Shown here in pieces: positions 4,907 through 12,213 of a DNA stretch of 64,000 bases. The notes under the pieces are model-generated. The model ran no database searches. It was not told where the DNA came from and saw only the letters and a list, made by a program, of their open reading frames with translations. This stretch comes from Brevibacillus brevis. Its GTDB lineage: Bacteria > Bacillota > Bacilli > Brevibacillales > Brevibacillaceae. Positions within the stretch are counted from its first letter, which is position 1; each line of letters starts with the position of its first letter. A program made the translations under genes and the position numbers. Where the stretch lies: positions 4,329,501 through 4,393,500 of the forward strand of contig NZ_CP134050.1 in the NCBI RefSeq assembly GCF_031583145.1, given 5' to 3'.

Positions 4907-5446
4907 CTACACGGGAACGGAACACGCCGGCTGTTTGAGCAGGCTGGGCGACTTTTGCTCCAGAAACGCAATGGTCGACTCCAAGTGATGGATGGTATAT
5001 TCCCAGCAAAAACGCTGATATTCGTCAAACTCGGCTGACAGTTTGCTGAATGTAGCCCTGCTTTGCTCCAGCAGATGGCGCTGAATCTCTATACAGCTGT
5101 CGAGCAATTCCTGCTGCTCTTCCGGGCTTCGGCTTTTCCCGAAGAAGATTTTGACCAACATGTCAGAACGCAGCACAGGCGGTACGATCGGCGTCTGAAT
5201 TTCTTGGCGGAACGTCTCTTTTCCCGTATCCGTAATCCGGTACAAAATTTTGTTTGGTTTGCCGGATTGGATAATCTCCTGTTTCGTCACGTGCCCCTCT
5301 TCCTCCAGCTTTCTAAGAGCCGGATAGATCGCTCCGAAGCTCGCGTCGTAGAAGAAGCCGATGCTGTTGGTAAACGCCTGCTTTATGTCGTACCCGCTCA
5401 TCTCGCCATAGCTCAAGAAACCAAGTATGATCGTTTTGACATCCAT
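4907..5446 (-). CDS. PadR-family transcriptional regulator (long form)
   Basis: The 179-residue protein has a PadR winged helix at residues 1-80 (YGEMSGYDIKQAF, then ASFGAIYPALRKLEEEGHV, then the wing LYRITDTGKE). A C-terminal helical dimerisation domain (Vir_act_alpha_C type) follows to about residue 165. PadR proteins are usually repressors of neighbouring or self promoters that respond to phenolics, drugs or stress. The ATG has a GGAGG site 10 bases upstream. No obvious target gene is adjacent on the same strand, so autoregulation from the AT-rich upstream region is the simplest idea. The effector is unknown. Confidence 0.85.
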   Translation of the reverse strand: MDVKTIILGFLSYGEMSGYDIKQAFTNSIGFFYDASFGAIYPALRKLEEEGHVTKQEIIQSGKPNKILYRITDTGKETFRQEIQTPIVPPVLRSDMLVKIFFGKSRSPEEQQELLDSCIEIQRHLLEQSRATFSKLSAEFDEYQRFCWEYTIHHLESTIAFLEQKSPSLLKQPACSVPV

Positions 5447-5747
5447 CTCTTCGCATCCTCCAATTCCATTCGTTTCTTTTCTCTCTCTGTGTCGGCCCCT
5501 CTGATCGATTCCCGCTTTCCGTGCGGGGGATCAATGAATGCCTTTATGTTCAAAATATTCTTTAACTAAATGTATTATAATTGGATTCTAATAATTATAC
5601 CAATGGGATTTCTTTATTATATCAATCAAAAATAATGATATATCACATCTGTCATAGCAGACGCCTGTGGAAAATTGGGCTTCCCTTCACTGCGGACCTC
5701 CCATAAGATGATACATACCTATCTGCTGTACGTAGGGGGAGAAATCG
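5447..5747. other. AT-rich divergent intergenic region
   Basis: No gene is seen here. The stretch separates the PadR gene from the split protease gene and is far more AT-rich than its surroundings. It contains an inverted repeat, TATAATT at 5576-5582 and AATTATA at 5593-5599, in the likely PadR promoter zone. That repeat could be an operator but is not a classical PadR ATGT/ACAT dyad. Confidence 0.4.
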
Positions 5748-6236
5748 GTGAAAAGTAAAAAATGGTCCCATTATACGCGGGTAAAGTACCCCGTGAGCAG
5801 CAGCAGTTTGCATCCCTTCAACTTTTTCGTGCCTATCGTAGAACGTGTGCAAGAGGGAGTGGTCTCCATCGTCACCGAGGATGCTCCCCATTCCAAAAAC
5901 GTGGACTCCTTGATTCGCAGTCTGATCAACGAAGAAGAACAGCCAAATACCACGGAGCGAAGTTTTGGCTCCGGCTTCCTCTTTCACCCGAAGGGGTATA
6001 TCCTCACCAGCGAACACGTTATCGGCAAATCCAAAAACATTTACGTCAAGCTCTTCAACGGGCGCGTATTCGAAGCGCAGCGCATTCTGTCCGATCGGGT
6101 ACGCGACTACGCCGTCATCAAGATCGATGCCGATTGCCGCTTGTTTCCGCTGCCCTTGGGGAGCTCCGCCCATACCAAAGTAGGGGAATGGGTCATCAGC
6201 GTCGGTTCCCCGCCTGTCGCCAAAGAGGCAAAATGA
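5748..6236 (+). pseudogene. HtrA/trypsin-like serine protease, 5' part interrupted by a serine-recombinase element
   Basis: The GTG start has an AGGGGGAG site upstream. The first 155 codons encode the N-terminal half of an S1C (HtrA-like) protease without a clear signal peptide. Visible motifs are GSGFLFHPKGYILTSEHVIG with catalytic His90, and RVRDYAVIKI with Asp120. After WVISVGSP the frame enters the inserted element and stops 8 codons later (PVAKEAK). The missing half with the Ser motif lies 3.3 kb downstream in a compatible frame. As arranged, the product lacks the nucleophile and is inactive. Excision of the element would restore a 240-residue protease without a PDZ domain. Confidence 0.9.
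6203..6213 (+). repeat. attL core: 11-bp direct repeat at left junction of the element
   Basis: CGGTTCCCCGC is repeated exactly at 9548-9558. The left flank is protease coding sequence and the right flank is element DNA. Reading from the left flank through one copy into the right flank keeps the codons in phase (SVGSP then LGLENSVT). Confidence 0.85.
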
Positions 6237-6243
6237 ATTCGCG

Positions 6244-7368
6244 TTAGATGACGCTTCGTTCGCCCGAAAGGTCTTTCGAAGGATTTTGTTTTGCTTTTTC
6301 CTCGATCAGATGCAGGGCAAACTGAACGGGTCTTCGGATCGCCTCCTCGTAAAGAGCCAGTTCTCCCATCTGGCGGAAGACTTCCCTCCCCGGTTTTGGG
6401 TTCACTTCGATCAGCCAGACCTTTCCGTCCACATCCACTCCGATATCCAGGCCGAATTCCATCATGCGGCCAAACCGCTCCTCGAGCACACGCGCAACCT
6501 GATGGGCCATCTGATGGCATTCGCGCAAGATCGTCCCCGCCTGTTCCTCGCCAAACCGCTTGGCAACCAGTACATGGAACGGTACGGCCTTTCCCCCACC
6601 GTGCAAATTGGAGGTGGCGCTGCCGCTTTTCCCGACTCTCGCACCGCATCCCGTCACCCGCCATTCGCCTTTCCCGTCCTTTTGGATCAACAGCCGCACG
6701 TCCGTTACCCGGCGAGGGACAAGCCCCAGATCGAGCCCTTGCTGAACCAGAAAATTGCCACCCTGAATGCTTTCATCACGGACCCATCGCTTCACCCAGC
6801 TTCCCGCCTGCTCCGCTGTACGGAGGCTAGCCGTCCGCTGTCCGTAGCGCTTGTCGCGTCCCGAGATCTCGTATCCGTTTGCCCGCGCGACGACCTTTGC
6901 GATGCCTCTTCCGCCTGTCCCGTTGCCGGGCTTCACGTAAAGAATCGGGTACCGCTTCAGCATGGCTTTGAACCTTTCCGGCGAGTATACGCTAGTAGCG
7001 GGTATCCACTGCTGGACCCTTTCGTCGCTTGCGAGAAGCTGGGTCACTCTCCACTTTTTGCTGAACGGGCTGTTGGCAAAGTCAAACAGACCGCTATGGC
7101 GCAGCTTCATATAGGCGGGCACCCGCCTCCGGTAACGGTCGATGACGATCTGCGGCCATGGATGCCACCCGCTCTCCCATCCACCGTTTGCCTTGGGAAC
7201 GAATCCGCGGATTTTCCTCCCCCGCGCGAATACGTCCTGGTGGGAGAACAAGAACACATCGGCTCCCAGCTTTCGGCCAGCTGCGACCAGTCTGCGCAGG
7301 TAGCCCGGCTCCGCAAAGCGCATCCCCTCTCTCCACGTCAAGATCCCGATGACTTTTTTCGCTGGCAT
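6244..7368 (-). CDS. YheC/YheD-family ATP-grasp protein (spore coat-associated), cargo of the element
   Basis: The 374-residue protein has the YheC/YheD layout: an N-terminal domain (GILTWREGMRFAEPGYL) that leads into an ATP-grasp fold. Grasp motifs are ILYVKPGNGTGGRGIAKV near residue 145, TDVRLLIQKDG near 230, and EFGLDIGVDVDGKVWLIEVN near 325, which ends in the metal-binding E-x-N. B. subtilis YheC and YheD are spore-coat-associated; the ligase substrate is unknown. I chose the ATG before PAKKVIG because a GAGGGG site lies 7 bases upstream; longer starts add unrelated sequence. The stop is about 30 bases inside the left att core, so it is element cargo. A shorter homologue lies near 36.2 kb. 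Confidence 0.85.
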   Translation of the reverse strand: MPAKKVIGILTWREGMRFAEPGYLRRLVAAGRKLGADVFLFSHQDVFARGRKIRGFVPKANGGWESGWHPWPQIVIDRYRRRVPAYMKLRHSGLFDFANSPFSKKWRVTQLLASDERVQQWIPATSVYSPERFKAMLKRYPILYVKPGNGTGGRGIAKVVARANGYEISGRDKRYGQRTASLRTAEQAGSWVKRWVRDESIQGGNFLVQQGLDLGLVPRRVTDVRLLIQKDGKGEWRVTGCGARVGKSGSATSNLHGGGKAVPFHVLVAKRFGEEQAGTILRECHQMAHQVARVLEERFGRMMEFGLDIGVDVDGKVWLIEVNPKPGREVFRQMGELALYEEAIRRPVQFALHLIEEKAKQNPSKDLSGERSVI

Positions 7369-7525
7369 GCAAGTCCCCTCTTTCCTCGCTATTTTCTCCC
7401 ACATTGTATGTGCGCCCACGGACCGCCGTAACGGGAGTCCGGGAAACAGGCTCGTTTGCTCGTTTCTCCCGGGCATTGGCAGAGTAGGCTGTCCGTTTTT
7501 CGGTGAATATTAGTGGTGTGCCCAC

Positions 7526-7542
7526 AGTAAACTTCTGTTACT
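7526..7542. promoter_or_regulatory. Candidate operator upstream of hxlR-type gene
   Basis: An AGTAA / TTACT inverted repeat with a 7-base spacer lies about 25 bases upstream of a TACAAT -10-like box (7565-7570). It sits in the divergent region between the YheC/D and HxlR genes. The spacing suits an HxlR-type autoregulatory site, but the match is short. Confidence 0.35.
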
Positions 7543-7608
7543 TACTTTTTTCAAGTCCGTGTGCTACAATATGAGGTAATTCAAACATGCTGTAGAGGTG
7601 ACGCCGTC

Positions 7609-7929
7609 ATGAGTCAAGATTTTTGTGGCGAACACATGTGTCCGAAGTACGAAGGGGCGATGAACGTCCTGGGAAAACGCTGGACGGGCTTGATCCTCCA
7701 CGTGCTGATGCGCGGCACGGTACGCTTCAAGGACATCCGGGAAATGGTCCCGCATATGAGCGACAAGATGTTGTCGGAACGGCTGAAGGAACTCGAAGAG
7801 CTGGAAATCCTGGAGCGGAAAGTGTACCCGGAGATTCCCGTTCGGATCGAATACGAACTCACAGAAAAAGGAAAGGATCTGCGTCCTGTTGTCGAATCCA
7901 TACACGAATGGGGACAAAAATGGATGTAG
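7609..7929 (+). CDS. HxlR-family transcriptional regulator inside the element
   Basis: The 106-residue protein is a single HxlR winged helix: an N-terminal CGEHMCPKYEGAMNVLGKRW segment, the recognition region FKDIREMVPHMSDKMLSERL, and the wing RIEYELTEKGKDL. N-terminal cysteines at residues 6 and 11 are in the region where redox-sensing HxlR proteins such as YodB keep their switch Cys. A GAGGTG site lies 8 bases before the ATG. It is divergent from the YheC/D cargo gene and upstream of the recombinase gene. It could control either one, or act as the directionality factor that the element otherwise lacks. Those roles are inference. Confidence 0.85.
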   Translation: MSQDFCGEHMCPKYEGAMNVLGKRWTGLILHVLMRGTVRFKDIREMVPHMSDKMLSERLKELEELEILERKVYPEIPVRIEYELTEKGKDLRPVVESIHEWGQKWM

Positions 7930-7933
7930 TTCC

Positions 7934-7974
7934 CCCCGCCTCGTCCCAGACAGGATGAAGCGGGGCTTTTTTTG
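7934..7974 (+). terminator. Terminator of the hxlR-type gene
   Basis: A CCCCGC / GCGGGG stem is followed by CTTTTTTT. It should limit read-through into the recombinase gene. Confidence 0.75.
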
Positions 7975-7984
7975 TTCGGGTCAG

Positions 7985-8047
7985 GCATAAGCCCCCTTCT
8001 CGTGTTGTAGACTCTAGCATCCCAACGCGACAGGAGGGGGCTTATGC
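7985..8047 (+). promoter_or_regulatory. Hairpin sequestering the recombinase ribosome site and start codon
   Basis: GCATAAGCCCCCTTCT (7985-8000) pairs with AGGAGGGGGCTTATGC (8032-8047) over 16 bp with one G-U pair and a 31-base loop. The 3' arm contains the whole ribosome site and the ATG of the recombinase. Any transcript reading in from upstream would fold the start away. A transcript starting inside the loop would not. This is the fold-back logic known for some transposase genes. Confidence 0.75.
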
Positions 8048-9522
8048 GGACAGCTGTCTACATTCGGGTCAGTACGGATGATCAGGCTCGCGAAGGCTTT
8101 TCTATCCCTGCTCAGCGGGAAAAGCTGCTTGCGTACGTGCACTCCCAGGACTGGACTGTCTCTGACCTGTACGTGGATGAGGGGGCAAGCGCCAAGGATA
8201 CCAACCGGCCCGAGCTTGCGCGGCTTTTGGCTGACGTGCGCAGCGGCGGGATCGACGTGGTCCTCGTCTATCGGCTGGATCGGCTTACGCGGTCTGTACT
8301 CGATCTGTATCGGCTGCTTCAGGAATTCGAGGAGTACGGTGTCCGATTCAAGAGCTGTACCGAGGTATACGATACGACGACGGCGATGGGCCGCCTGTTC
8401 ATTACGCTGGTGGCTGCCTTGGCGCAGTGGGAGCGGGAAAACCTGGGTGAGCGCGTCAGGCTCGGGATGGAACAGATGGTCAAGGAACGGAAACGGCCTG
8501 GCGGACCGCCTCCATACGGCTATGAGCTGGCGGATGGCAAGCTGGCAGTCCATCCCGAAGAAGCCTCCGTCGTACGCATGATGTTTGAGAGCTACAACCG
8601 AGGCGAGTCGCCGCGCAGCATTGCGGAGCACGCCAATCGCGGGGGAGCGAGGGGGAAAAACGGGGCGCGCTGGAGCGCCGGAGCGGTTTTGCGCCTGTTG
8701 AAAAACCCTGTGTACTACGGAGCCCTGCGCTGGAATTTTACGGACTCCGGCCAGCGGCAAAACGCTCCTGACGAATGGCTGCTGGAAGAAGCGGCCCACC
8801 CCGCCATTGTCGGGGAAGACTTGTTTCGTCAGGTGCAGGATCGGATCGGGCAGCGCGGTTCCCGGCATCCCCGGGTCCTCTCTTCGTCTCTGCTGTTTTC
8901 CGGGCTGCTATATTGCTCTCGCTGCGGCTCGCCCATGCGCGGGAAGACGACGCGAATCGGCAAAAGAGACGGCGGCTGCGCTTCGCACACCTACTACACG
9001 TGCCGTGCGAAGCGCACCGGCACCGGCGCCTGCGATGCCGCTGCCATTCGCGAAGACCTGCTGGAGCTGGCCCTGCTCGGCCAACTGCTGCTGTATCCGC
9101 AGCCGATCCGGGAGGCAGCTGCTGCTGCATGGAACACGGCCCGGCTTTCAGCGGGCAGGGAGACTGGATCGGTGGAAGCCGAGCTTTCGGCCAAGCGAAG
9201 ACGATGGGAAAAAGCCTACGAAGAAGGGCTGATCACCTTGCCTGCCTTTCGGGCAAAGCTGGATGAGCTTGACGATTTGGCGAGAAAAGCTTCCCGTCCG
9301 CTTCTCCGGTCAGCTTCGAGCGACACGGCTTGCGGCCAAGCGGATTCAGGCTGCCCAACCGATTACCGTGCGCTTCTCGACTGGAGAGAGGTGTGGTCCT
9401 TCGCCACCCGCGAGGAAAAACGGCAACTGATCACGACGCTGGTTGAGCGGTTGGATGCCGAAGCCCTCACCACTTCCAGACGCAACCGCCAAGTGCGCCT
9501 GACCCATTTGCTCTTTCGCTGA
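8044..9522 (+). CDS. Large serine recombinase (SpoIVCA/phage-integrase type)
   Basis: The 492-residue protein has the standard order of a large serine recombinase. The N-terminal resolvase domain spans about residues 1-145, with nucleophile Ser10 in YIRVSTDDQ and the catalytic segments [10 protein letters not shown] and [19 protein letters not shown] recombinase domain follows ([10 protein letters not shown], then [16 protein letters not shown]). Next is a zinc ribbon ([13 protein letters not shown] with [14 protein letters not shown]) and a C-terminal helical region. The length is close to SpoIVCA, which excises skin from sigK. An AGGAGGGGG site lies 4 bases before the ATG. The stop is 26 bases from the right att core, as usual for an integrase next to its own attachment site. 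Confidence 0.93.
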
Positions 9523-9547
9523 CACTTTTTGGCCGTTCGGAAACAGG

Positions 9548-9558
9548 CGGTTCCCCGC
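9548..9558 (+). repeat. attR core: 11-bp direct repeat at right junction of the element
   Basis: This is an exact copy of CGGTTCCCCGC at 6203-6213. The left flank is element DNA just after the recombinase stop. The right flank is protease coding sequence (LGLENSVT). Confidence 0.85.
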
Positions 9559-9815
9559 TTGGTTTGGAAAATTCGGTCACAGCAGGGATCATCAGCGCAA
9601 AAAACCGCCGCTTGCAGGTCGCCAAGCGACTGTACGAGGAAATATTCCAGACGGACGCCGCCATCAATCCCGGGAACAGCGGCGGACCGCTCATCAACCT
9701 GAACGGAGAAGTCATTGGACTGAATGCGTTTATCATTCAGTCGAGCCAGTGTCTGGGCTTTGCCATCGGAATCGACGCTCTGAAAAACCAGTTGGACCAT
9801 TACGTATTCAAATGA
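9549..9815 (+). pseudogene. HtrA/trypsin-like serine protease, 3' part with the catalytic Ser
   Basis: The frame encodes [18 protein letters not shown] followed by [20 protein letters not shown], the nucleophile motif of S1C proteases, and [13 protein letters not shown] at the end. It has no start codon or ribosome site of its own at the junction. The first ATG inside this part would give only 83 residues without His or Asp. Joined to the upstream part across the 11-bp core, the nucleophile becomes Ser196 of a 240-residue protein. There are no stop codons or frameshifts in either half, so the gene has been kept intact apart from the insertion. Confidence 0.9.
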
Positions 9816-9835
9816 AAAAACAACAAACCTTCTCA

Positions 9836-9903
9836 GGACGTAAGGCAGGTCGGCTGCGCCACGCATCGGCGTAGCCTCTGTTACAGGCGTCCACTCGTTT
9901 TTT
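9836..9903 (+). terminator. Branched terminator after the protease gene
   Basis: An outer GGACG / CGTCC stem encloses a GGCTGCGCC / GGCGTAGCC hairpin, and a T-run follows. The inner hairpin resembles the arm of the dispersed repeat found just downstream. Confidence 0.6.
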
Positions 9904-9910
9904 CACAGGA

Positions 9911-9974
9911 GAAATCCTGCCTGCGCCATGCCTTTTGGCGGAGCCGCGGTTATCAATTCCTATCTGCACAAAAA
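9911..9974. repeat. Dispersed hairpin repeat, copy 2 (short)
   Basis: The sequence GCGCCATGCCTTTTGGCGGA followed by GCCGCGGTT is shared with the copies near 2.2 and 35.1 kb. So is the tail AATTCCTATCTGCACAAAAA. The middle block with TTATACTGGAT is missing here. Confidence 0.7.
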
Positions 9975-9996
9975 GACCCCGTCTAGCGGGACGGGG
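9975..9996 (-). terminator. Terminator overlapping the stop of the 48-codon gene
   Basis: A CCCCGTC / GACGGGG stem is followed by TCTTTTT on the minus strand. The stop codon TAG lies at the base of the hairpin. Confidence 0.7.
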
Positions 9997-10129
9997 CTTG
10001 CTTCTCAAAGGCGATCAGATACACATCTTGGCCTTCCGAGTTGATCTGCTCTTCCGCTTGCTTGAGCTGCTGCAGCTGGGCGGCCGTCAGCTGCGCAATC
10101 GGCAATTCGTTCAGGCGATTTTGTTCCAT
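9983..10129 (-). CDS. Small hypothetical protein, 48 residues
   Basis: The frame runs from ATG (start MEQNRLNELP) to TAG inside a terminator hairpin. The product is polar, helical and glutamine-rich (IAQLTAAQLQQLKQAEEQIN) and ends in EKQAPSR. No cysteine, transmembrane or DNA-binding motif is visible, and I do not recognise a family. A GGAGG ribosome site lies about 10 bases before the ATG, and the downstream terminator fits the gene exactly. These are the reasons to call it real. It lies downstream of, and on the same strand as, the Fur-boxed DUF2325 gene, so it might be cotranscribed. Confidence 0.6.
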   Translation of the reverse strand: MEQNRLNELPIAQLTAAQLQQLKQAEEQINSEGQDVYLIAFEKQAPSR

Positions 10130-10193
10130 AGCGCTTCATTCCTCCGTGGTTATCAGACTCCTCACTAGTCTGTCCTGCCCGGAAGGTATGTAT

Positions 10194-10481
10194 TTACGCC
10201 GTCTTGTGAAAAGCTTTGGCGATGGCCGAACACGAGCGTTTGCAGAACAAGATGGGCAGTTCCCGGTCTTTTGCCTGGCTCTTTACGGTTTTGGCCAAAT
10301 TGTGATTGACATAGTCCGTCAGCACGAGAATCATGTGAATCCCCGAAGGAATTTTCACGCCGGTCTGCGAGCTTTTGCGCCCCGTTACGTGATGGATTTC
10401 CTGGAATCCTCTCTCCTGCAAAAAATCGATGATATTTCCCAGGCGATCTCCGCCAATGACCAGAATCGATGACATAACCAT
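10194..10481 (-). CDS. DUF2325 domain protein under Fur-like boxes
   Basis: The 95-residue protein matches DUF2325: ILVIGGDRLGNI at the start, a central TGRKSSQ, then MILVLTDYVNHNLAKTVK, and the Cys pair LFCKRSC near residue 80. The fold is probably Rossmann-like. The molecular function is unknown, though the conserved cysteines suggest a redox or metal role. AGGAGG precedes two closely spaced ATGs; the second, before SSILVIG, is the alternative start. The minus-strand promoter (TTGTCA at 10586-10591, 17 bp, TAATAT at 10563-10568) is overlapped by a Fur-like dyad, so iron repression is likely. It is divergent from the iron-storage encapsulin operon. Confidence 0.85.
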   Translation of the reverse strand: MVMSSILVIGGDRLGNIIDFLQERGFQEIHHVTGRKSSQTGVKIPSGIHMILVLTDYVNHNLAKTVKSQAKDRELPILFCKRSCSAIAKAFHKTA

Positions 10482-10726: not shown

Positions 10727-11326
10727 GTGCAAGACTTTTCCCAGCTGCACGCCATATTCGATCGAACAAGAGGGTATATCAACCGCTTCATGGGCATTAT
10801 TCAACCGATCATTGACGCTGCCCAGGACGAGCATACCCGACTGTACTATCACCACATTTTGGAAGAAGAAGAGCAGCGCTTGGGCCGTCTGGAAGAACTG
10901 ATTCCGCACCTGGCAGAACTGTCTGCCGAAAACAAGCCGGATCAGCTGAGCGACCGCGAGCTGTCCCAACTGCTTTCGGATATCAATCTGGAACGTTTTG
11001 GCCTGCACAATTTCCGCGAGCATCTGGAGCTGTCCCTGTATGAATTCCGGGACGAGGAGACCCGCCAGACGCTTGACGGCATGCGCGAGAAGACGCACGC
11101 CGACTACCTTCAGGTAAAAGAGATCATGAGCAGGCTGAGCGAACGCTTCTCCGACGTCTATCACGCCGATCTCACCGATCACGACGAAGGACATGACGTC
11201 CATCAGGTGGACCATCTGAAAGCGTCCGCGAACGCCCCGCAAGGCGTCGCTTCCGTGATCAAGCACGCTCCTGCCCCCGCTCCCGGGAAGAAAGGGCTGA
11301 CTGTCGGCAGCCTGAAAGGTTTGTAA
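10727..11326 (+). CDS. IMEF encapsulin cargo (ferritin-like iron-mineralising protein)
   Basis: The 199-residue protein has a four-helix ferritin-like body (residues 1-150) rich in Glu and His, including YYHHILEEEEQRL and FREHLELSLYEFRDEE. A disordered linker with HDEGHDVHQVDH follows, and the C-terminal peptide KKGLTVGSLKGL ends the protein. That tail is the docking signal that loads cargo into encapsulin shells. IMEF cargo oxidises and mineralises iron inside very large T=4 shells. The GTG start has GAGGAGGTGG just upstream. The shell gene follows 38 bases later. The assignment rests on the tail, the fold and the neighbour together. Confidence 0.92.
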   Translation: MQDFSQLHAIFDRTRGYINRFMGIIQPIIDAAQDEHTRLYYHHILEEEEQRLGRLEELIPHLAELSAENKPDQLSDRELSQLLSDINLERFGLHNFREHLELSLYEFRDEETRQTLDGMREKTHADYLQVKEIMSRLSERFSDVYHADLTDHDEGHDVHQVDHLKASANAPQGVASVIKHAPAPAPGKKGLTVGSLKGL

Positions 11327-11364
11327 AAGAAAGAACGATCCTGTATGACTTGGAGGGAACTGCT

Positions 11365-12213
11365 ATGGACAAGCTTCGCAAATATCCGGATTCGCCCTTG
11401 ACCCAGGAGGAATGGGCCCAACTGGACGCCACAATCGTCGAAATGGCCCGCCGCCAGCTGGTCGGCCGCCGCTTCATCGATATTTACGGACCGCTGGGTG
11501 AGGGCATTCAGACCATCACCAACGACGTGTACGAGGAATCCCGCTTCGGGGGTCTGAGCCTGCGCGGAGAATCGCTGGAAATGACCCAGCCGAGCCGCCG
11601 CGTCAGCATGACCATCCCGATCCTGTACAAAGACTTCATGCTCTACTGGCGCGATGTGGCACAGGCTCGCACCCTCGGCATGCCGCTCGACATGGGCGCT
11701 GCGGCCAATGCGGCTTCGGCCGGCGCTCTGATGGAAGACGATCTGATCTTCAACGGCGCAGCCGAATTCGATTTGCCCGGCCTGATGAACGTGAAAGGCC
11801 GCCTCACTCACCTCAAGAGCGACTGGATGGAGTCGGGCAACGCGTTTGCCGACATCGTGGAAGCCCGCAACAAGCTGCTGAAAATGGGCCACAGCGGTCC
11901 TTACGCCCTGGTTGTATCCCCTGAGCTGTACGCCCTGCTGCATCGCGTGCACAAAGGAACGAACGTGCTGGAGATCGAGCACGTGCGCAATCTCGTCACG
12001 GATGGCGTCTTCCAATCGCCGACCATCAAAGGGCGCTCCGGTGTCCTCGTGGCTACCGGCCGACACAATCTCGACCTGGCGATCGCCGAAGACTTCGACT
12101 CGGCTTTCCTCGGCGACGAGCAAATGAACAGCCTGTTCCGCGTGTACGAGTGCGTCGTCCTGCGCATCAAGCGCCCGAGCGCGATTTGCACACTGGAAGA
12201 AACCGAAGAATAA
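11365..12213 (+). CDS. Family 1 encapsulin shell protein (IMEF type)
   Basis: The 282-residue protein has the HK97-type encapsulin sequence: MDKLRKYPDSPLTQEEW at the start, RRFIDIYGPLGEG near 40, SGPYALVVSPELYALLHRVH in the A-domain, and EDFDSAFLGDE near the C-terminus. The length equals that of the Quasibacillus thermotolerans shell, which forms 240-subunit compartments. Cargo targeting peptides bind the inner face. I chose the ATG before DKLRKYP because GGAGGG lies 7 bases upstream; a start 5 codons earlier is less likely. Together with the cargo it forms a two-gene iron-storage operon. No encapsulin-linked ferredoxin gene is seen nearby. Confidence 0.94.
   Translation: MDKLRKYPDSPLTQEEWAQLDATIVEMARRQLVGRRFIDIYGPLGEGIQTITNDVYEESRFGGLSLRGESLEMTQPSRRVSMTIPILYKDFMLYWRDVAQARTLGMPLDMGAAANAASAGALMEDDLIFNGAAEFDLPGLMNVKGRLTHLKSDWMESGNAFADIVEARNKLLKMGHSGPYALVVSPELYALLHRVHKGTNVLEIEHVRNLVTDGVFQSPTIKGRSGVLVATGRHNLDLAIAEDFDSAFLGDEQMNSLFRVYECVVLRIKRPSAICTLEETEE

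Follow-up and report, generated by a model that had tools for sequence, protein, structure and literature searches.

Among the sporulation gene-intervening elements, skin (in sigK) and SP-beta (in spsM) are prophages or prophage-like and measure tens of kilobases; in both, a large serine recombinase restores the host gene in frame. A sigK insertion of 22 kb has also been reported. The gin element within gerE of Bacillus cereus ATCC 10987 is 28.6 kb long and encodes three recombinases, with GirX as its defined factor (PMC5595907); yin, within yabG of Clostridium botulinum, is reported as a prophage of a single isolate, with excision demonstrated (PMC10747680). In heterocyst-forming cyanobacteria, 10 of 87 interrupted genes carry several elements (PMC4874684). 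Here we describe a 64,000-nucleotide stretch of Brevibacillus brevis DNA (contig NZ_CP134050.1, positions 4,329,501 to 4,393,500; hereafter the window) in which a serine protease gene is split by an element of 3,345 bp that encodes a serine recombinase. From the comparisons below we consider it very probable that the locus houses a site-specific excision element that has been domesticated and is passed on vertically, in effect a 'DNA intron', and that the protease is rebuilt by excision, most likely in the mother cell of sporulation.

With skin, SP-beta, gin and yin the Brevibacillus element shares an encoded serine recombinase, whose activity is predicted, a direct-repeat core, an inverted-repeat att site and precise in-frame restoration (26 of 26 genes interrupted at this site alone). 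It resembles gin in being non-phage and in having a serine recombinase, a short shared core with an inverted repeat, and a target gene rebuilt by excision (PMC5595907), but it is only 2.1–3.7 kb long, has one recombinase, interrupts another gene and is kept by almost the whole genus. Like yin, it splits a protease gene and encodes a recombinase with the same three Pfam domains (PMC10747680), whereas it is genus-wide, contains no recognised prophage genes and targets a serine protease rather than YabG. The spore-coat protease family of YabG (TIGR02855) was not detected in any of 26 Brevibacillus genomes; replacement of YabG by the split-type protease was only a thought, and many genomes carry both. 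Unlike skin and SP-beta, the element has neither a recognised phage gene nor a visible directionality factor. The cyanobacterial elements likewise sit within genes and are excised in differentiation (PMC4874684), but belong to another phylum and another differentiation. A preliminary description of the window had called the element far smaller than skin or SP-beta and its host gene not a familiar target. Both points hold: 3,345 bp compares with 28.6 kb for gin and 22 kb for the sigK insertion, and no report of the split-protease locus was found among the open-licence papers listed in searches on Brevibacillus and on gene-intervening elements (in one of these, 25 of 58).

The split protease gene and its recombination sites

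The distance between the two copies of the core repeat CGGTTCCCCGC is likewise 3,345 bp (Table 1). Crossing these copies generates a 723 bp frame of 240 codons plus a stop, with no internal stop and with His90, Asp120 and Ser196 all present in the virtual join. Virtual rejoining of all 26 genes interrupted at this site alone, from 25 Brevibacillus genomes and genome G038, gave products of 237–242 aa with the triad, and the exons contained no stop codon in any of the 26 rows. Exact in-frame restoration from halves free of stops, as the preliminary description had it, was thereby reproduced. The two halves together cover the 144-position Trypsin_2 model. A Pfam search detected no PDZ domain in either half, and the rejoined product has only 240 aa; of the hallmarks of HtrA/DegP, the trypsin-like catalytic domain with His-Asp-Ser is present and the C-terminal PDZ domain is absent. 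By its sequence the protein is a trypsin-like S1C/HtrA protease domain alone, and the earlier label 'HtrA-like' stands for the protease domain but not for the PDZ. No Rfam intron family matched at the element boundaries at E values up to 1 within positions 5400–10200, where one unrelated match scored far below the gathering score, and the locus therefore lacks the structural mark of a group I or group II intron.

The crossover point is predicted to be the dinucleotide TC, since no other contiguous bases of the core are shared by every one of the 26 attL/attR pairs. Joining the ends of the element as in a circle (attP) brings together two arms that form a dyad, with 17 of 24 positions complementary in the window against a shuffled mean of 6.1, and with 14–20 of 24 across the 26 loci against about 6 in shuffles. 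The TC centre was the best of 17 offsets in every one of the 26. Symmetry of the chromosomal joint (attB) amounted to 7–11. A cruder choice of arms gave dyads of 10–18 of 22 and is superseded by the 24-position measurement. The attP arms also covary an element length apart: 446 of 624 cells were complementary, compared with 410 (standard deviation 6.5; maximum 427 in 500 shuffles), and further pair types numbered 17, compared with 12.2 expected by shuffling (maximum 17), under a control that leaves sequence relatedness in.

Rejoined copies occur naturally. Genome G002 encodes an intact protein, and each of the products predicted by virtual rejoining in G007, G022 and G023 differs from it at 1 of 240 residues; an uninterrupted 240-residue homologue with an empty site, proposed in the preliminary description as a check, is thus at hand. 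The metagenome protein P0028 (JGI source, longest contig 980 bp) is an exact 150-aa substring of the virtual G020 and G024 products and spans the junction, and P0001 is an intact 240-aa relative, at 97% to the G022 and G023 virtual products. In Brevibacillus sp. H7 the whole protease (P0002) lies on a 197,375 bp contig, whereas the records of the recombinase (P0169) and of the YheC/D protein (P0250) both give 4,192 bp as the longest contig. For B. reuszeri the corresponding records (recombinase P0155, YheC/D protein P0244) both give 3,265 bp; its protease (P0021) is a partial sequence that stops at GSPL. The matching sizes within H7 and within B. reuszeri suggest a single contig carrying the free element.

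The same halves could in principle function without any rearrangement, if they were translated separately and assembled as a split protease: both are conserved and open in all genomes, and exon 2 has an in-frame TTG near its start in 23 of the 25 split genomes. That TTG, however, is a conserved leucine codon, which is CTG in G003 and G025, and exon 1 reads into the element with clade-specific tails, its first stop falling at 162–500 codons. Separate translation also leaves the conserved core-centred dyad and the natural intact copies unexplained, and we regard it as highly improbable.

Distribution, descent and selection

In 25 of the 26 Brevibacillus genomes compared, the window's own included, the protease gene is split at the identical site and accompanied by an orthologous serine recombinase, 57–71% identical to the window's in the other 24; the split is therefore not a matter of chance. 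Throughout the genus the locus reads M29 peptidase, PadR, exon 1, element, exon 2. Elements of G003 (2,076 bp) and G025 (2,209 bp) show only hxlR and the recombinase gene, and the remaining 23 (3,166–3,697 bp) contain yheCD as well. The intact genome, G002, has only a distant recombinase match (E 1.7e-19) and falls within the G005-G023 cluster of the tree, beside G022 with negligible local support, so that loss of the element in G002 is the simplest explanation.

Distances between recombinases followed those between the neighbouring M29 peptidases (r=0.824, with none of 9,999 permutations as high; 28 genomes), and the two trees are alike by eye, with a few weakly supported differences such as the placement of the G014-G016 group. 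Because recombinase and host distances correlate, we conclude that the element is vertically inherited. The ratio of nonsynonymous to synonymous substitution (dN/dS) was calculated across the 25 split genomes from pairs with dS of 0.05–1.5. For exon 1 the median was 0.052 (104 of 300 pairs; maximum for a single pair 0.234); for exon 2 it was 0.006 (60 of 300 pairs, median dS 0.33; maximum 0.084). The neighbouring M29 gene, which is intact, gave 0.037, and the other medians were 0.051 (padR), 0.054 (hxlR), 0.118 (yheCD) and 0.130 (recombinase). Judged by these ratios, both protease halves are under purifying selection. Apparent stops inside some hxlR, yheCD and M29 matches were dismissed, as they lie in the first 2–25 match residues, at or before the gene starts.

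These results bear on the idea of a selfish insertion into a dispensable gene, either recent or spreading horizontally, with which the kinship of the recombinase to phage serine integrases would agree (34–41% identity among the matches listed, the best 15 of 50 phage records). Genus-wide orthology, host-tracking distances and exon dN/dS values near that of the intact neighbour oppose it, and we assign it next to no probability. The preliminary description had left a choice between recent insertion and selection for regulated excision; the former, like an artefact, is ruled out by the shared split site and the host-tracking distances, and the latter is favoured by the dN/dS values.

An order-level comparison of 39 genomes found the gene intact in eight (G002, G026, G028, G029, G030, G034, G035 and G036), interrupted only at the site described above (site A) in 26, interrupted only at a second site (site B) in G027 and G031, and interrupted at both in G032, G033 and G037, which belong to two sister genera. 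The branch dividing site-A carriers from the rest had a support of 0.708, which makes a single ancient insertion at site A likely without settling it. When 398 genomes were sampled across the class, every match listed outside the host's family with E up to 1e-53 was in one frame, from residue 26 or earlier to residue 231 or later; among them, interruption of the protease was seen only within the host's family.

In the three genomes with both elements, exon 1, a mini-exon and exon 3 join in frame via shared words of 5–6 bp and 8–9 bp, the site-B word starting 21–25 bp and ending 29–34 bp downstream of the site-A dinucleotide. Site-B recombinases are 23–28% identical to the window recombinase and 50–57% identical among themselves, and their cargo, recognised by reading the sequences rather than by profiles, includes kdp-like genes (G032, G033) and tad-like genes (G027). 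At site B the best dyad matched at 16 of 22 positions in G027 and at 10–12 of 22 in four other genomes; because this symmetry is modest, no site-B crossover point is claimed. No join was found for G027 under the pattern searched. Its exon 3 lies on the opposite strand beside the site-B recombinase gene (L060:17590-17805), so that rejoining would need inversion rather than excision; this arrangement could be a draft-assembly error.

Genes and internal features of the element

Pfam profiles recognised three genes in the window element, separated by intergenic gaps of 29–240 bp: a YheC/D ATP-grasp gene on the minus strand, an HxlR regulator gene and a recombinase gene with Resolvase, Recombinase and Zn-ribbon domains, which bears out the serine-recombinase assignment made earlier. 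No phage structural or replication genes are among the three. Recombinase residues S10, R8, R77 and R80, which we take to be catalytic, and C291, C294, C320 and C330, presumably the Zn residues, are invariant in all 29 aligned orthologues. The closest phage records (best 15 of 50) are annotated as recombinases or integrases, and the NCBIfam XisF and Ccr models matched far below cut-off. An IMG/VR scan with the recombinase alone, which reaches close relatives only, yielded no confirmed relative, and a genome_contigs scan yielded one confirmed relative locus, in B. centrosporus NRRL NRS-664. C-terminally shortened recombinases were observed as a 440-codon frame in G019 (L043) and a 434-aa protein in B. 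reuszeri (P0155).

The hxlR gene is present in all 25 genus elements, each of which retains the CPK cysteine. NCBIfam relates the protein, at a score below cut-off, to the redox regulators RrpA/RrpB, and we assume it to be YodB-like. The site-A elements of G032 and G033 gave no hxlR match, so HxlR would not be essential to excision there, and its candidacy as an essential directionality factor is weakened. Order members lacking hxlR at the locus have their best hxlR match elsewhere on the chromosome (in G032 at C38:406673-407023, 65%), and G002 has only more distant hxlR matches. Sequence relationships of this kind indicate that hxlR may have been captured by the element.

Two conserved blocks precede the protease and recombinase genes. 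The former, probably a regulated promoter, occurs in one copy in each of the 26 genomes (at most 3 mismatches), and the latter in one copy in 24 of 26 (at most 2 mismatches), missing only in G002, which has no element, and in G021; the reversed control patterns gave 0 in both cases. With both blocks single-copy genome-wide, the pattern search revealed no regulon. The largely conserved block upstream of hxlR is a possible autoregulatory operator. Downstream of the split gene, the window contains genes for an IMEF encapsulin cargo and a family 1 encapsulin shell (10727–12213).

Table 1. Features of the split protease locus, in window coordinates
Feature	Coordinates	Strand	Basis
46-bp conserved block 5' of the protease gene, TGGGCNTCCC-N15-CCATAAGATGATANATACCTA	5676..5721	+	Pattern search
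First protease exon, with GTG start codon, His90 and Asp120	5748..6208	+	Pfam Trypsin_2 positions 1-90
attL core CGGTTCCCCGC; TC at 6207-6208	6203..6213	+	Core repeat and dyad analysis
attP dyad right arm, within attL	6209..6232	+	Dyad analysis
YheC/YheD-type ATP-grasp protein, 374 aa; cargo	6244..7368	-	Pfam PF14398, E 2e-77; length matches P0229
Block GTTACTTACTTTTTTCAAG 5' of hxlR, largely conserved	7537..7555	+	Alignment of 25 genomes
HxlR-family winged-helix regulator, 106 aa; CPK cysteine	7609..7929	+	Pfam PF01638, E 5.7e-33
Terminator-like stem and T-run between hxlR and recombinase gene	7932..7975	+	By eye, sequence and alignment
Promoter-like block GGCATA-N16-TGTANACTCTAGCA 5' of the recombinase gene	7984..8019	+	Pattern search
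Large serine recombinase, 492 aa	8044..9522	+	Pfam Resolvase, Recombinase and Zn-ribbon, each above cut-off
attP dyad left arm, within attR	9528..9551	+	Dyad analysis
attR core CGGTTCCCCGC; TC at 9552-9553	9548..9558	+	Core repeat and dyad analysis
Second protease exon, with Ser196 and stop codon	9552..9815	+	Pfam Trypsin_2 positions 87-144

Predicted excision and its timing

We propose that the protease gene is carried interrupted in the germline. The serine recombinase would bind the two dyad arms and cut at TC in attL and attR, whereupon the exons would join without a seam into a gene of 240 codons and the element would leave as a circle of 3.35 kb whose attP is symmetric. The recombinase itself probably carries out excision, and a directionality factor may be dispensable, encoded by the host or represented by the HxlR protein. 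Excision would take place only in cells that leave no progeny, the mother cell of sporulation being the most likely, and the protease would presumably act late in sporulation. A terminal cell such as the mother cell is favoured because excision in dividing cells would lose the element, yet a single loss is seen in 26 genomes. All 26 carry spoIVA and are therefore of spore-forming type. A stronger version, to which we give even odds, holds that the protease is obligatorily DNA-spliced across almost all Brevibacillus, through a switch that is complete in itself, can consist of just two genes (recombinase and HxlR in the 2,076 bp element of G003) and has no need of a classical directionality factor. 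In the three two-element genomes, under this version, exon 1, the mini-exon of about 10 codons and exon 3 would be joined only once both of the unrelated recombinase elements had been excised.

Excision may also be real but not linked to sporulation. A stress or redox signal acting via HxlR, or stochastic excision and reintegration, would then activate the protease during growth, in the manner of active lysogeny. The constant presence of hxlR and its CPK cysteine, the below-cut-off relation to RrpA/RrpB and a recombinase promoter assigned to no sigma factor agree with such control. Against it stand the site-A elements of G032 and G033 without an hxlR match and recombinase distances that follow the host and give no hint of horizontal transfer; moreover, repeated excision in dividing cells should leave many empty sites, and only one of the 26 genus genomes has one. 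We consider this alternative unlikely, and excision in the mother cell is preferred.

Several points weigh against the preferred reading. The case for excision is built from genome and protein sequences, and its sporulation timing, though plausible, is argued by analogy. Alignment, genome-wide patterns, the literature and spoIVA upstream regions (26 regions picked, one of which, L116, is apparently misplaced) led to no sigma factor assignment for either upstream block, and a GerE consensus was not found in the literature passages searched. No dedicated directionality-factor gene is visible, the minimal elements showing only hxlR beside the recombinase gene (small open reading frames of elements outside the window were not surveyed). 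Loss of the element from a strain, instead of programmed excision, could account for G002, P0001 and P0028, and the same-size contigs support a free element indirectly. The dN/dS values come from a subset of pairs, those for exon 2 being mostly close relatives, and the in-frame TTG early in exon 2 (CTG in two of the 25) means that the sequence by itself is compatible with separate translation of that exon.

Known sporulation elements are large and often phage-derived, which makes benefit to the host hard to separate from persistence of the element. Because an element of 2–3.7 kb has been kept by 25 of 26 species and the split gene is strongly constrained, the interruption itself may be useful. 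The element is small enough for transfer as a whole into Bacillus subtilis, where recombinase, directionality and timing would be directly testable, and the double-element genomes offer a test case for ordered DNA splicing. The locus looks like a compact, long-lived case of gene rebuilding by DNA excision in bacteria.

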